A program made the position numbers and the translations under genes. Below, piece after piece: positions 24,636 through 57,341 of a stretch of 64,000 bases of DNA; the stretch's first letter is position 1, and every line of letters starts with the position of its first letter. The stretch comes from Ornithobacterium rhinotracheale. Lineage in GTDB: Bacteria > Bacteroidota > Bacteroidia > Flavobacteriales > Weeksellaceae. Location: contig NZ_CP035107.1 in NCBI RefSeq assembly GCF_004088395.1, positions 2,061,001 to 2,125,000 on the forward strand. Direction: 5' to 3'. The notes beneath the pieces were generated by a model that was given only the letters and a program-made list of their open reading frames with translations, made no database searches and was not told the DNA's origin.

Positions 24636-26780
24636 ATGAGTTTTTTAAACAAGAAAAATAGCTTTTTATACAGTTTTTTATGCGGGGCTTTTTGCATGAT
24701 TTATGCGCAAAATGTATCTCTAGAGGATGCCATTTATTTCAAATATTCGCCTAAATCCATTGAAGGCGGACAATCTCTGAACGATGACGAGCACTACACG
24801 CTACTCACGCCCGAAGGTATTTCTAAATTTAGCTATAAAAATACTGAAAAAGTGGCAGATTTATCCAAAGGACGCTATAGCGATTACAGCTTTAGCCCAG
24901 ATGAAAATCTACTTTTGCTTGAAAAAAGTCCAGAGAAAATTTATCGCCGCTCTAAAAGAGCAAAATATGCTGTGAAAAATTTAAAAACGGGACAAGTCGA
25001 ACCGATTTTTAAAGGAAATAAAATCCAAGAGCCTACTTTTTCGCCCGATGGAACAAAAGTTGCTTTTGTGTTTGAGAATAATTTATATTACCAAAATTTA
25101 GCTACTCAAAAAGTTACACAAGTTTCTGCAGATGGTAAGAAAAACGAAATCATCAATGGAGTAGCAGATTGGGTGTATGAGGAGGAGTTTTCGTTTGTGC
25201 GAGCATTTGACTGGAGTGCAGATGGGCAATATCTAGCTTATTTAAAGTTTGATGAAAGCCAAGTGCCTGTGATGAATATTGATGTGTATCGCAGAGGGAT
25301 TTATCCAGATGAATTAAGCTTTAAATATCCTAAAGCGGGCGAAAAAAATTCTGTGGTGAGTGCAGAGGTGTACAACCTCAACGACCAAAAAACTGCAACG
25401 GTGAATCTGGCTGAATACAAAGATTTCTATATTCCAAGAATTCAGTTTAATCCATATAATGATGATTTATATCTTTTGGTTTCAAACAGGCACCAGAACC
25501 AAGTAGATGTTTTGCAATACAATCCAGCAAATAATCAAGTAAAAAAGCTTTTTTCTGAAAAAGACAAGGCGTGGATAGATACCGATCATTTTATTTTTAA
25601 ATTCCTAGACAAAGATAGCTTCTTATGGGGAAGCGAGCGCGACGGGTTCCGCCATTTGTATCGTTACAATACGCATGGCAAACTGCTCGGGCAAGTAACT
25701 AAAGGCAACTGGGAGGTAACTGAGTTTTATGGCTACGATCCTAAGTCTAAAAAAATATTTTTCCAATCTACTGAGCCTGGCAGCATCAACCGCGGTGTCT
25801 ACTCCGTCAATCTAAACGGCAAGGATAAAAAAACTTTGGCTACACAAAAGGGAATTAATTCAGCTTTATTTAGCAAAAACTTTCGTTATTTTATTCTCAC
25901 GCACAGCCAAGCCAACAAAGTACCTGTCTACACACTCAACGACGGAAACTCGGGCAAAGTGATTCGTGTGCTTGAGGATAATAAGGAAACGGAACAGAGA
26001 ATTGCTCAAACCAATTTTTCGCCAAAGGAATTTAGTGTAATTCATGTAAATGGCCAAGAGTTAAACGCTTACATGATTAAGCCTAAAGACTTTAATCCAA
26101 AGAAAAAATATCCACTTTTAATGTATTTATACAACGGCCCTGGTAGCCAAGAAGTAAAAAATGCAAGTTTTGATTATTATTTTTGGTGGTTTCAATACTT
26201 GGCAAGCCATGGCTACATTGTCGCCGTGGTAGACGGTCGTGGAACAGGATATAAAGGAGCTGCTTTCAAAAAAGTGACTTACAAAAATCTTGGAAAATTA
26301 GAATTGGAAGACCAAATCGCTGCCGCGAAATATTTCGGATCATTACCTTATGTGGATAAAACTAGAATCGGTATGTTTGGCTGGAGTTTTGGGGGCTACA
26401 TGACGCTACTTGCGATGACCAAAGGAGCAGACACCTTCAAAACAGGGATTTCCGTGGCTCCTGTAACCAATTGGAGATTGTATGACACCGTATATACCGA
26501 GCGTTTCCTACAAACACCACAAGAAAACGAAGCGGGCTATGAGGACAACTCCCCTCTTAATTATGCTAATTTACTTAAAGGGAATTTGCTCCTGATTCAC
26601 GGCTCGGCAGACGACAATGTACATTTGCAAAATTCAATGTTGATGAACGAGGCTCTTGTGCAAAATAATAAGGATTTTGATTTTATGGTTTATCCCGACA
26701 AAAACCATGGAATCTATGGCGGAAACACTCGCTTACATTTATTCAGAAAAATCAGTAATTACATATTTAAAAACTTATAA
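24636..26780 (+). CDS. dipeptidyl peptidase IV family serine peptidase
   Basis: S9 family peptidase of 714 residues from MSFLNKKNSF. A signal peptide ends MIYAQ at about residue 25. A DPP IV beta-propeller domain fills about 50-480 and has the Glu motif VYEEEF. The alpha/beta-hydrolase domain follows. The nucleophile is Ser584 in GWSFGGY, with SADDNVH and DKNHGI supplying Asp and His. It removes Xaa-Pro or similar dipeptides in the periplasm. Three peptide transporters follow directly, so the block probably takes up the products. Confidence 0.93.
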   Translation: MSFLNKKNSFLYSFLCGAFCMIYAQNVSLEDAIYFKYSPKSIEGGQSLNDDEHYTLLTPEGISKFSYKNTEKVADLSKGRYSDYSFSPDENLLLLEKSPEKIYRRSKRAKYAVKNLKTGQVEPIFKGNKIQEPTFSPDGTKVAFVFENNLYYQNLATQKVTQVSADGKKNEIINGVADWVYEEEFSFVRAFDWSADGQYLAYLKFDESQVPVMNIDVYRRGIYPDELSFKYPKAGEKNSVVSAEVYNLNDQKTATVNLAEYKDFYIPRIQFNPYNDDLYLLVSNRHQNQVDVLQYNPANNQVKKLFSEKDKAWIDTDHFIFKFLDKDSFLWGSERDGFRHLYRYNTHGKLLGQVTKGNWEVTEFYGYDPKSKKIFFQSTEPGSINRGVYSVNLNGKDKKTLATQKGINSALFSKNFRYFILTHSQANKVPVYTLNDGNSGKVIRVLEDNKETEQRIAQTNFSPKEFSVIHVNGQELNAYMIKPKDFNPKKKYPLLMYLYNGPGSQEVKNASFDYYFWWFQYLASHGYIVAVVDGRGTGYKGAAFKKVTYKNLGKLELEDQIAAAKYFGSLPYVDKTRIGMFGWSFGGYMTLLAMTKGADTFKTGISVAPVTNWRLYDTVYTERFLQTPQENEAGYEDNSPLNYANLLKGNLLLIHGSADDNVHLQNSMLMNEALVQNNKDFDFMVYPDKNHGIYGGNTRLHLFRKISNYIFKNL

Positions 26781-26791
26781 ACTTTAAACCT

Positions 26792-28339
26792 ATGAGTATT
26801 TCATTAAACCAAAACAATTTACCGAACGGGATACCTCAGAAAGAGATTTTAGGTCATCCAGCGGGATTATTCGTGCTATTCTTTTCAGAAATGTGGGAGC
26901 GTTTCTGCTACTATGGCATGCGTACTTTGCTTACACTTTATGTGGTAAAAGCTTTATTGCAATCAGATGCTACGGCATTTTCCATCTACGGAGCCTACAC
27001 AGGTCTTGTATATGCAGCACCAGTATTGGGAGGCTGGGTTGCCGACCATGTTCTTGGATATAAATACTCCGTACTCTTCGGGGGAATCATGATGATGATT
27101 GGGGAAATGCTGATCCTCGGTCCTCACTTTCTGGGCACAAGCGTGCAAGAAACGGGGCTCACTTGGCTCTACATAGGTATGGCAATCATCATTGTAGGGA
27201 ATGGCTACTTCAAAGCAAATATTTCCTCTATTGTAGGAAAACTCTACAAGGATAACGATGTGAGACGAGATTCTGGTTTCACCATTTTCTATATCGGAAT
27301 TAATCTTGGAGCATTGCTTGCTACGCTTATCGCAGGATGGGTGGGAGAAGTTTATGGCTACGAATATGGTTTCGGATTGGCTGGTATCGGAATGCTTTGC
27401 GGTATCTTTATCTTCTATGCAGGTAGAAAATTATACGGACACGTTGCTGAACCTCCTGCAAATTTAAACAACAAAGTAGTAGGTCCGCTTACAAGATTCC
27501 ATGTTACTATTTTAGCTTCAATTGCAATTATTCCATTATTATATCTTTTAATTCAATACAACACGCTGGTAGGATACCTAATGGTTGTCGTTGCACTTTA
27601 TGTGCTTTACACACTGCTTTCTGCGGGAATTAAAGGTGGCAAAATCCTGAGAGATAGAATGATTATTTTTGTAATTCTATGTTTATTAAATATCATTTTC
27701 TGGGCATTTTTTGAACAAGCGGGGACATCGCTCACACTCTTTGCAGAGAGAAATGTAGACAGACAAAACTTCTTAGGCTTCTGGAACATCACAGCTGCTC
27801 AAACACAAGTATTTAACGCATTTTACATCATCGCAATGGGTTCAGTTTTCTCAATGCTTTGGATTAAATTAGATAAATTAAAACTTAACCCAAATATTCC
27901 TGCTAAATTCGGAATTGGTATTGTACTAGTAGGTATCGGTTTCTTGGTTCCTAAATTATTCCCAATTAGCCCACTATATACTGTATCTATTTGGGCATTG
28001 GTTCTATTATACTTTTGCCACACTATTGGAGAGTTATTTTTATCTCCTATTGGGCTTTCCATGGTAACTAAATTAGCCCCTAAAAACATGACAGGTACTC
28101 TGATGGGAGCATGGTTCTTATCTCTTGCGGGAGCAAATTATGTTGCGGGTAGTATTCTTGCGCCACTCACAGGAACTGGCGGAGAGGAAAATGCAGCAGA
28201 TGTTGTGATGACGCCAGCACAGAGCTTGGCTCAGTATCTAGAAGTATTTGGCAAGTTTGGCTACATCGCCGTGGGCTGTGGTCTTGTGGTACTTTTAGCT
28301 TCTCCATTCTTAAATAAATTAATGCACGGAATTAAATAA
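26792..28339 (+). CDS. POT family peptide transporter (first of three)
   Basis: Proton-coupled di/tripeptide symporter of the major facilitator superfamily, 515 residues, about 12-14 helices. The POT signatures are present: ExxERFxYYG as EMWERFCYYGMRTLL, and the PTR2 region FYIGINLGALLATLIAGWVGE. The start is 11 bases after the peptidase stop, so peptidase and transporter are one operon. A terminator follows. Confidence 0.94.
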   Translation: MSISLNQNNLPNGIPQKEILGHPAGLFVLFFSEMWERFCYYGMRTLLTLYVVKALLQSDATAFSIYGAYTGLVYAAPVLGGWVADHVLGYKYSVLFGGIMMMIGEMLILGPHFLGTSVQETGLTWLYIGMAIIIVGNGYFKANISSIVGKLYKDNDVRRDSGFTIFYIGINLGALLATLIAGWVGEVYGYEYGFGLAGIGMLCGIFIFYAGRKLYGHVAEPPANLNNKVVGPLTRFHVTILASIAIIPLLYLLIQYNTLVGYLMVVVALYVLYTLLSAGIKGGKILRDRMIIFVILCLLNIIFWAFFEQAGTSLTLFAERNVDRQNFLGFWNITAAQTQVFNAFYIIAMGSVFSMLWIKLDKLKLNPNIPAKFGIGIVLVGIGFLVPKLFPISPLYTVSIWALVLLYFCHTIGELFLSPIGLSMVTKLAPKNMTGTLMGAWFLSLAGANYVAGSILAPLTGTGGEENAADVVMTPAQSLAQYLEVFGKFGYIAVGCGLVVLLASPFLNKLMHGIK

Positions 28340-52318: not shown

Positions 52319-53716
52319 TTATTTCATACTGCCGACCATATCTCTTGGGTTCACCCATTTGTCAAAATCCTCTGGGCTTACATAGCCTAAGCGCACGGCT
52401 TCCTCTTTGAGTGTGGTTCCGTTTTTGTGGGCGGTTTGTGCGATTTCTGCTGCCTTGTAGTAGCCTATGTGGGTGTTTAGGGCCGTTACAAGCATCAGGG
52501 AATTATCTACTAATTCTTTAATTCTCTTATCATTTGCCTCTATACCTACCACGCAATTATCTGTGAAAGATACGCAGGCATCACCGATGAGCTGGGCGCT
52601 TTGTAGTGCGTTGGCAGCCATTACGGGTTTAAACACATTTAGCTCATAATGACCTTGTGTGCCTCCTACTGAAATTGCCACATCATTACCCATTACCTGA
52701 GCGGCTACCATTGTTACGGCTTCGCACTGAGTAGGGTTCACTTTCCCTGGCATAATGGATGAGCCTGGCTCATTCGATGGAATGATGATTTCGCCAATTC
52801 CCGAGCGTGGTCCAGAGGCCATCATACGGATATCGTTAGCAATTTTATTTAAGGAAACGGCAATTTGCTTCAATGCGCCGTGTGTCTCCACGATGGCATC
52901 GTGGGCGGCAAGTGCTTCAAACTTGTTTGGCGCTGTTTTAAACGGAAGGCCTGTAAACTCCGCGATGTATTCCGCCACTTTTACATCATAGCCTTGTGGG
53001 GTGTTCAAGCCTGTACCCACGGCGGTGCCGCCTAGGGCTAGTTCCGAAAGGTGTTCAAGCGTATTGCGAAGTGCCTTTAAGCCGTGCTCCAATTGCGAAG
53101 CGTAGCCAGAAAACTCCTGCCCTAGCGTGAGTGGCGTAGCGTCCATTAGGTGCGTTCTACCGATTTTTACAATATCTTTAAACGCCTCTGCTTTTGCTTT
53201 AAGTGCATCTTTTAATTTTTCCACCCCAGGGATTGTAACCTCGGCAATTTTCTTGTACACTGCAATGTGCATTCCTGTGGGGAAGGTATCGTTTGAGGAC
53301 TGAGACTTGTTCACATCATCATTAGGCTGAAGCGTTTTCTCTCCCTCGCCAATCTTCTTGCCCGCTAATTCGTGCGCGCGATTAGCAATCACCTCGTTCA
53401 CATTCATATTTGATTGCGTGCCAGATCCAGTCTGCCAAATCACAAGCGGAAACTGGTCGTCCAGTTTTTTATCCAAAATCTCATCGCACACCTGTGCAAT
53501 AAGGTCTCTCTTTTCCACAGGCAGCACCCCAAGCGCAGCATTAGCATAGGCAGCGGCCTTCTTTAAATAGGCAAAGCCATAAATAATGTCCAGCGGCATA
53601 GAGGCAGCCGGCCCAATCTTAAAATTATTGCGTGAGCGCTCTGTTTGCGCGCCCCATTTTTTGTCTGCGGGTACTTTTACCTCGCCTAGTGTGTCTTTTT
53701 CTATTCTGTATTCCAT
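52319..53716 (-). CDS. fumC: fumarate hydratase class II
   Basis: Iron-independent fumarase of the citric acid cycle, 465 residues from [16 protein letters not shown]. The signature [15 protein letters not shown] and the substrate motifs [14 protein letters not shown] and [12 protein letters not shown] are intact. The length is normal for FumC. It is monocistronic, ending against a hairpin. The start at 53716 fits the family; the longer frame adds eight residues. Confidence 0.97.
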
Positions 53717-53860
53717 AATACTTAATTGATGTTTTTTCAAGGGTTAAAGTTACGATTTTTTTATCGCACTTGAGATATGATTTATATTGGCTTTTGCCAA
53801 ACACAAAAAAGAGAACTGATTTTCAAAAAAAACAATTCCCTTATTTTTAAACATTTACTC

Positions 53861-55264
53861 TTACGGATACATACGCTCCATGTCTCTGCCCACGGTACTC
53901 ATTCGGTGTTTAATGATGGTATTTTTTGGTCCGTAGTACCCTTCCCAGTTGGCTGGGGGCAATTGTTTTTCCCAGCGACTTAATTTCTTGAGCATTCTCT
54001 TTACTTTGCGCGGGTACTTTTCGGCTAGGTTGTGCTGCTCAGAAATGTCATCTTTTATATTAAATAAAAGCACGGGATTGGTATCCACTCGAATTACTTT
54101 CCAATCTCCACACTGAATAGCGGCAGCAGCACCACGCTTCCAATATAGGTTTTTGTGTGGCGTTCCGCTGTTTTTTTGAATATATGGCAACAAGTTCACC
54201 CCGTCGAGATGTTTATCTTTTCGGGTGTTTCCTGCTGCGACAAGGCTTGTGGGCAAAATATCGAGCGAAGATACAGCCTTGTCATACACCGCATTGGCAG
54301 GGATTTTCCCATTCCAGCGCATGATGTAGCCTACACGCACACCGCCTTCCCATACAGAGCCTTTCATTCCACGCAATTGCCCATTGTCGGAATAATTGGT
54401 GGTAGCGCCTCCGTTATCATTCAAGAATATTACTAAGGTATTGTCGTCAATGCCCTTGTTCTTCAATTCTTGCATCACACGCTCAATGTTGTAATCCATG
54501 TTAGAAAGCATGGCATCATAAGTTTGGCGACCTTCGCTGCCTACTTGGGTAAATTTATCCAAATCGTTCTTTTTAGCCTGCAGTGGTGTATGCACTGCAT
54601 TGTAAGCCAAATAAATGAAAAACGGCTGTTTTTTATCGGCATTTTCATCAATGAATTTTAACGCCTTATCGGTAAACATATCGGTAAGATAAGTGATTTC
54701 CTCTTCGGGGATAATCTTATCGTTGTCCCAAAGGGCGTATTTCTGTGCTCGTTTCTTTTTAAACGAAAAGAAATCTCTGTGCCCCTCTTGGAAACCATAA
54801 AATTCATCAAAACCACTTTTAAGCGGGAAGAATTTGGCTTCGTTTCCTAAGTGCCATTTTCCTACTGCCAAAGTGCGGTAGCCTTCTTCTTTCATGTGGT
54901 CTCCAATCGTTTTTTCGCTCAAGGCAAGCCCCACGTCTTCTTTTTTGAATCCTTCGCGTGGTTTTCCCGTAGGATTGTTTTCAAAGCCAAATCGCTGCTG
55001 ATAACGCCCCGTGAGTAAGCCTGCACGAGACGGGGCTCACACCGATGCCGAAACATATGCTTTAGAAAACAGTGTTCCTTCTTTTGCCAGACGATTGATG
55101 TTCGGCGTTGGGATTTCCTTGTTTCCGTAGCATTCAAAATCGGCATAACCTGCATCATCGCTTAAAATTACAATGATGTTTGGCTTGGTAGTAGTTTGTG
55201 CTTGTGTTGTGTAAATAAGCATCACGAGCAACAAAATGCTCAGCCATTTTTTTAAATAAGTCAT
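53861..55264 (-). pseudogene. secreted sulfatase with TGA at the catalytic cysteine codon
   Basis: Type I sulfatase frame of 468 codons. A signal peptide (MTYLKKWLSILLLVMLIYTT, cut near AQ) is followed by the metal motif NIIVILSDDAGYADFECYG. The sulfatase signature would be CAPSRAGLLTGR, but codon 76 (55039-55037) is TGA where Cys is expected: SASV-stop-APSRAGLLTGR. This Cys is normally oxidised to formylglycine, the catalytic residue. The rest (LAVGKWHLGNE, NDNGGATTNY) is intact without frameshift to the end. Without readthrough, only a 75-residue stub forms. Point mutation, assembly error or recoding are the options. Confidence 0.9.
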
Positions 55265-55757: not shown

Positions 55758-57341
55758 TTACATACTCCTTCTGTGTGTAATGATGATATTTGAATGTTGG
55801 TTTTCAAACGCCTCCTCATAATTTGTTTTAAAGCCATGCAATAGCACTTCGATATTGTTTTCTTTGGCAAAAACATTGGCAAAATCTTGAACCAGCTCCA
55901 GCACATCGGTAGAAATGTATGATGACTTGCGTGCATCTATAATGAGCTTAGAATTTGGCTGAATGTTTTTTAAAGTCTTTTTGATGGCAGCTTTGTTTAA
56001 AAATGAAACCTCTTGTGCCAGCTCGATTTTCACCTCATCGGCATCGGTTAATTCCTTACGGCTGTAGTAATAAGCTCTTTTCATATTCCCCACCAAAATT
56101 GAAACAATCGCTACCGCCAGACCAAACATTACTCCTTTTAGCAAATCTGTCGCGACAACTCCTATCATTGTTACGATAAAAGGAACGAACTGATATTTTC
56201 CTTTATGCCAAAAATGCATTATTGTACTGGGTTTAGCCAATTTGTAGCCTACAAGAAGAAGCACTGCTGCAAGCGTAGCCTGAGGTATCATATTTAATAA
56301 CACAGGAATGCTTAAAACTGAGATTAAAAGTAAAAATCCGTGAATAATTGCCGACATTTTGCTCGTAGCCCCCGAATTTGCGTTGGCAGAACTCCTTACC
56401 ACTACCGAGGTCATAGGCAATCCTCCTAAAAACGAACTGATAATGTTCCCTATTCCCTGAGCTCTAAGCTCTTGATTGGTATCTGTAATGCGTCGATGCA
56501 CATCCATTCTATCAGCTGCCTCGATACACAAAAGTGTTTCTACCGAAGCTACCACGGCAATCGTTGCTCCAGCTACCCATACAGCAGGATTTAAAAAACC
56601 TTCAAAATTAGGCAACACGACTAATCCTTTGAAATCTTCAAAAGAGCTAGGTACTGGCAATTGCACTAAATTGCTGCTAGACAATGCCCACGCACTTCCC
56701 GAATACACAAAATATTGATTGATTAAAACGCCTAAGAGCACTACAATTAGTGCAGCGGGAAGCATTTTTATATTCTTTAAAAATGGAATTTTATCCCATA
56801 CAATGAGTATGATAAGGGAGAAAATCGTAATTACAACTGCTCCGTATTCTATATTATTGCTAAATTCTGTGATAAATTCGGGATTAAGGCTAAAAGAATC
56901 TAACAGCGATTCTGATGGCTTATACCCAAACACATTGGGCAATTGCTTCCATGCTATGATGACTCCTATACCTGCTAGCATTCCCTCGATCACAGACGAT
57001 GGAATGTATTCTGCTATGCTCCCCGCACGCACGAAACCTAAAATTAATTGAATGATGCCCGCCAACACACCTGCGCACAAAAATAGCTCAAATGCACCTA
57101 ATTCTTGAATATTTGCCCAAACAATGGCTGTGAGCCCTGCTGCGGGTCCCGAAACACTGATGTGCGATGTAGATAAATATCCGATGACGATCCCCCCTAC
57201 AATGCCTGCAATAACACCTGAAAGTGATGGTGCACCTGATGCCAAGGCTATGCCTAAACACAGTGGTAAGGCGACTAAAAACACCACTAAACCTGATGCA
57301 AAGTTTTTCTTGAAATCTTTTGCTAAATTATTTTTATTCAT
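55758..57341 (-). CDS. SulP family anion transporter
   Basis: Inner-membrane transporter of 527 residues, about 11-12 helices and a C-terminal STAS domain (about 430-527, with LIIDARKSSYISTDVLELV). The start MNKNNLAKDFKKNFASG and the repeat SGPAAGLTAIVWANI match SulP. A beta-carbonic anhydrase lies 450 bases upstream on the same strand, so bicarbonate uptake is more likely than sulfate. That assignment is an inference from context. Confidence 0.9.
   Translation of the reverse strand: MNKNNLAKDFKKNFASGLVVFLVALPLCLGIALASGAPSLSGVIAGIVGGIVIGYLSTSHISVSGPAAGLTAIVWANIQELGAFELFLCAGVLAGIIQLILGFVRAGSIAEYIPSSVIEGMLAGIGVIIAWKQLPNVFGYKPSESLLDSFSLNPEFITEFSNNIEYGAVVITIFSLIILIVWDKIPFLKNIKMLPAALIVVLLGVLINQYFVYSGSAWALSSSNLVQLPVPSSFEDFKGLVVLPNFEGFLNPAVWVAGATIAVVASVETLLCIEAADRMDVHRRITDTNQELRAQGIGNIISSFLGGLPMTSVVVRSSANANSGATSKMSAIIHGFLLLISVLSIPVLLNMIPQATLAAVLLLVGYKLAKPSTIMHFWHKGKYQFVPFIVTMIGVVATDLLKGVMFGLAVAIVSILVGNMKRAYYYSRKELTDADEVKIELAQEVSFLNKAAIKKTLKNIQPNSKLIIDARKSSYISTDVLELVQDFANVFAKENNIEVLLHGFKTNYEEAFENQHSNIIITHRRSM

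Follow-up and report, generated by a model that had tools for sequence, protein, structure and literature searches.

A TGA stop at the catalytic cysteine codon of an S1-type sulfatase gene in Ornithobacterium rhinotracheale: very probably a nonsense mutation, not selenocysteine recoding

Introduction

In bacterial selenoproteins with a bSECIS element, a UGA at the position of a catalytic cysteine is accompanied by a hairpin, for which an apical loop of 3-9 nt, a G in the first two positions of this loop, an upper stem of 4-16 bp, a distance of 16-37 nt from the UGA and an MFE of ≤ −7.5 have been given as constraints (PMC13188914). A sulfatase gene of Ornithobacterium rhinotracheale resembles these systems in both features, as an in-frame TGA occupies the codon of the catalytic cysteine and an inverted repeat follows; unlike the bacterial selenoprotein genes, however, it resides in a genome without detectable selenocysteine machinery, and its hairpin departs from the strict consensus and has not been conserved among the congeners. 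The closest solved structures are those of S1_19-like S1 sulfatases (PDB 6prm, 6psm and 9hh3; 6prm and 6psm are of carrageenan type), of which 6prm matches the read-through protein over nearly its whole length (residues 23-439, E=1e-113). These structures share the signature C-x-P-S-R-A-G-L-x-T-G around the site, whereas the codon of the signature cysteine is a stop in the gene presented here. Among the papers examined from the full-text literature on selenocysteine, sulfatase and formylglycine, none describes a selenocysteine-containing sulfatase.

Results

The interrupted sulfatase frame

The gene is situated in a window of 64,000 nucleotides (contig NZ_CP035107.1, positions 2,061,001 to 2,125,000; see Table 1 for the features). 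The original prediction that the TGA is the sole stop within the 468-codon frame and coincides with the cysteine of the C-x-P-S-R motif was confirmed by translation with the TGA read as a residue: codon 76 is the only internal stop, and the signature at this site reads C-A-P-S-R with the TGA as its first residue. With the stop read through, the sulfatase domain PF00884 was matched by residues 27-344 (Pfam; E=1e-65). As a member of the S1 sulfatase family the gene is disrupted: it has the PF00884 domain but not the C/S-x-P-S-R formylglycine signature, the cysteine codon of which is a stop.

Table 1. Features of the disrupted sulfatase gene (positions in the window)
Feature	Position	Strand	Remarks
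Broken S1-family sulfatase gene	53861..55264	minus	ATG at 55264, TAA end at 53861; 468 codons including the terminal stop
In-frame TGA, codon 76 counting Met	55039..55037	minus	read from the sequence; formylglycine Cys position of C-x-P-S-R
Stretch translated from the native start, 75 codons	55040..55264	minus	signal-peptide-like N-terminus and beginning of the sulfatase domain
Longest ORF 3' of the stop, 357 aa, GTG start at 54934	53861..54934	minus	
5' arm of the 7-bp inverted repeat, GCCCCGT	55030..55036	minus	begins on the base next to the TGA
3' arm of the 7-bp inverted repeat, ACGGGGC	55006..55012	minus	retained by one congener, missing in the other two

A restart of translation 3' of the TGA was considered and rejected: the longest downstream ORF contains neither the metal-site aspartates of the N-terminal part nor the C-x-P-S-R motif, so that no active product is expected from it. 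The codons of the sulfatase gene that are a single base change away from a stop number 168, codon 76 among them, and the landing of the stop on the catalytic cysteine codon is most likely a coincidence.

Besides the broken gene, seven genes with a sulfatase domain and a single anaerobic sulfatase-maturating enzyme are encoded in the genome; as these have been kept, the loss does not extend to sulfatase maturation as such. The only gene found for the maturating enzyme is divergently adjoined by a sulfatase gene (genome positions 1750580-1752985).

Comparison with congeners

All three other genomes available for the genus were compared. Each contains an intact orthologue (protein identity 98, 97 and 72%) with a cysteine at codon 76, unlike the stop found here, and the gene order of the nearest congener is the same as in the window. 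In comparison with the two nearest copies, eight non-synonymous or stop changes and 17 synonymous changes are private to the present gene; the sister branches exhibit non-synonymous to synonymous ratios of 7:17 and 8:42, too few changes for statistical testing. The residues at codons 150 and 261 are identical in the three congeners and altered only here, which, small as the numbers are, hints at a relaxation of constraint. The dN/dS of the sulfatase versus the nearest congener is 0.096, a value pointing either to a young break or to a base-calling error.

Among approximately 46 aligned orthologous ORFs of the syntenic stretch (nearest congener versus window) a single internal stop was encountered, namely the sulfatase TGA; the locus is, in consequence, neither part of a decayed region nor of a visibly error-prone assembly. 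Across the window, dS versus the nearest congener lies between 0.007 and more than 2, with 0.13 for the sulfatase gene (53864-55264), approximately 2.3 for the neighboring fumarase-like gene (52322-53740) and 0.84 for the SulP-type transporter gene (55761-57329); such swings between adjacent genes suggest that extensive homologous exchange may have occurred between the species of the genus. The alignment of one congener ORF of 560 aa to positions 26656-28336 of the window falls into two pieces in different frames (residues 1-42 and 39-560), suggesting that the start differs or that a small frameshift is present near 26771-26781, where the ORF overlaps its neighbor.

Selenocysteine machinery and genetic code

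The genome consists of a single contig of 2,253,590 bases and is 99.89% complete. No match to SelA (TIGR00474) was obtained in it, while the E. coli positive control was detected, and among 148 genomes of the family not one contained a selA above the cut-off. SelB (TIGR00475) gave eight matches in the genome, all below the cut-off and best assigned (NCBIfam) to EF-Tu, CysN, IF-2, TypA, a Tet(Q)-like protein, LepA, RF3 and EF-G; the two matches to SelD (TIGR00476) were likewise sub-threshold and correspond to ThiL and PurM. A tRNA-Sec (selC, RF01852) above the cut-off was not found in the genome, the eight sub-cut-off matches examined being ordinary tRNAs for Ser, Gly, Leu and others (ARAGORN).

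With regard to the genetic code, the general tRNA search of the genome revealed 39 tRNAs, all of them standard and none with a UCA anticodon (ARAGORN); the sole tRNA-Trp has the anticodon CCA, which reads UGG. Release factor 2 is present (prfB, 499 bits versus a cut-off of 370), and UGA is therefore a normal stop. A reassignment of UGA or a suppressor tRNA was rejected on the grounds that a UCA-anticodon tRNA is missing and release factor 2 has been kept. As far as the genome shows, both selenocysteine insertion and UGA reassignment are excluded.

As a side observation, the N-terminal part of a translational GTPase (genome positions 969590-969985, in a 696-aa frame) scored best against Tet(Q)-type tetracycline ribosomal protection proteins, with 295 bits over 132 residues of the N-terminal stretch scanned.

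The inverted repeat after the TGA

The 31 bases 3' of the TGA (55036..55006, minus strand) read GCCCCGT-N17-ACGGGGC and thus contain the exact 7-bp stem that had been described in the original prediction. This stem is not significant: approximately 3.6% of 40-base stretches drawn at random from the window contain an exact stem of at least 7 bp. In its exact form the stem is absent from all three congeners. It is completed by one base of the 5' arm, a derived silent change found in this genome only. A templated (quasi-palindrome) mutation was considered on account of this private base and rejected, as judged by eye, because the base forming the stop mismatches a copy of the other arm.

The minimum-energy RNA fold is not the exact 7-bp stem but a shifted hairpin with G-U pairs, the main stem of which is retained by one congener that has the cysteine codon. 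With its 5-nt apical loop, a G in the first position, a distance of 16 nt from the UGA and an energy of −15.2 kcal/mol, this hairpin answers to the loose SECIS description; its upper stem, however, consists of 2 bp followed by a bulge. Under the strict bSECIS criteria the TGA site failed, no uninterrupted 4-bp upper stem passing. Under bulge-tolerant criteria it passed, yet the same holds for the sequence after approximately 6% of the codons in long ORFs, and by relaxed criteria a SECIS-like hairpin is present after 45 of the 453 codons of the sulfatase gene and after 8 of the 118 cysteine codons of the window. A function as a SECIS-like element was rejected in view of the lacking conservation, the failed strict test and the commonness of similar hairpins. 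The hairpin very probably arises as a by-product of the coding sequence and one private silent change, and it is no evidence of recoding.

Discussion

An ordinary gene for a secreted S1-type sulfatase, broken by a single nonsense mutation at the catalytic cysteine codon, is very probably what the locus represents. Translation from the native start meets a standard TGA after 75 codons, ahead of the catalytic residue; the product would be a short fragment, secreted or degraded, that lacks the active site, and this sulfatase would be missing from the strain. The mutation is isolated and probably recent, judging from the sequence comparison: apart from codon 76 the frame has stayed open, and its identity to the intact orthologues of the two nearest congeners is 97-98%, which argues for a young break. 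The original prediction had already favored a recent change from cysteine to stop, and this preference is supported by the missing selenocysteine machinery and by the cysteine in the three sister species. Against a nonsense mutation it may be held that the minimum-energy hairpin answers to a loose SECIS description, and further that the frame is otherwise open, that the dN/dS is low (0.096) and that no strong sign of decay is visible.

The latter properties would be expected if the stop were a sequencing or assembly error, the true codon being one for cysteine and the gene intact; indeed, with respect to frame openness and dN/dS, a very recent mutation and a base-calling error would look alike. 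Such an error, to which two private differences lying within four bases in GC-rich sequence (one in the stop codon, the other at the silent position that follows) also lend some weight, is nevertheless considered unlikely: the change is a substitution and not an indel, the syntenic ORFs compared contain no further internal stop, and hence no visible sign of an error-prone assembly at this locus, and private substitutions are present elsewhere in the gene, some of them at conserved residues. A programmed or leaky read-through of the UGA, in which tRNA-Trp or tRNA-Cys as a near-cognate would yield a little full-length enzyme, is still clearly less probable. Among bacterial stop codons, UGA is the one most prone to leak, and the frame continues intact after it; on the other hand, no UCA-anticodon tRNA was found, release factor 2 is present, a conserved read-through signal is lacking given that the stop is absent in the congeners, and by the chemistry of sulfatases a tryptophan inserted at the signature cysteine would not provide a formylglycine precursor.

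Least credible of all are the two readings in which the TGA is decoded as a precursor residue. The possibility that it is read as selenocysteine by means of the downstream bacterial SECIS hairpin, giving a selenocysteine sulfatase, had been put forward in the original prediction as one to be excluded, by way of a genome search for selA, selB, selD and tRNA-Sec and a look at the codon in relatives; both went against recoding, which is excluded at the genome level and retains a barely perceptible probability. The position of the TGA exactly at the catalytic cysteine, the hairpin after it, and the small apical loop, first-position G and spacing of 16 nt, all within the published ranges (PMC13188914), speak for this reading; they are opposed by the failure to find any of the four components in a 99.9% complete one-contig genome or a selA above the cut-off in 148 genomes of the family, by an upper stem interrupted after two pairs in a hairpin whose like is common after codons of long ORFs, and by its lacking conservation in congeners that have a cysteine. 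It is equally far-fetched that a formylglycine precursor residue might be inserted at the UGA by an unrecognised recoding mechanism operating without the known selenocysteine genes. We know of no formylglycine precursor derived from selenocysteine; if recoding were true, this would be the first one known.

A nonsense mutation in a sulfatase gene, as preferred here, matters little beyond annotation. More generally, a stop at a catalytic cysteine together with a hairpin is weak evidence for selenocysteine unless the genome has been checked for sel genes. In the genome of this strain, the gene should be annotated as a pseudogene.
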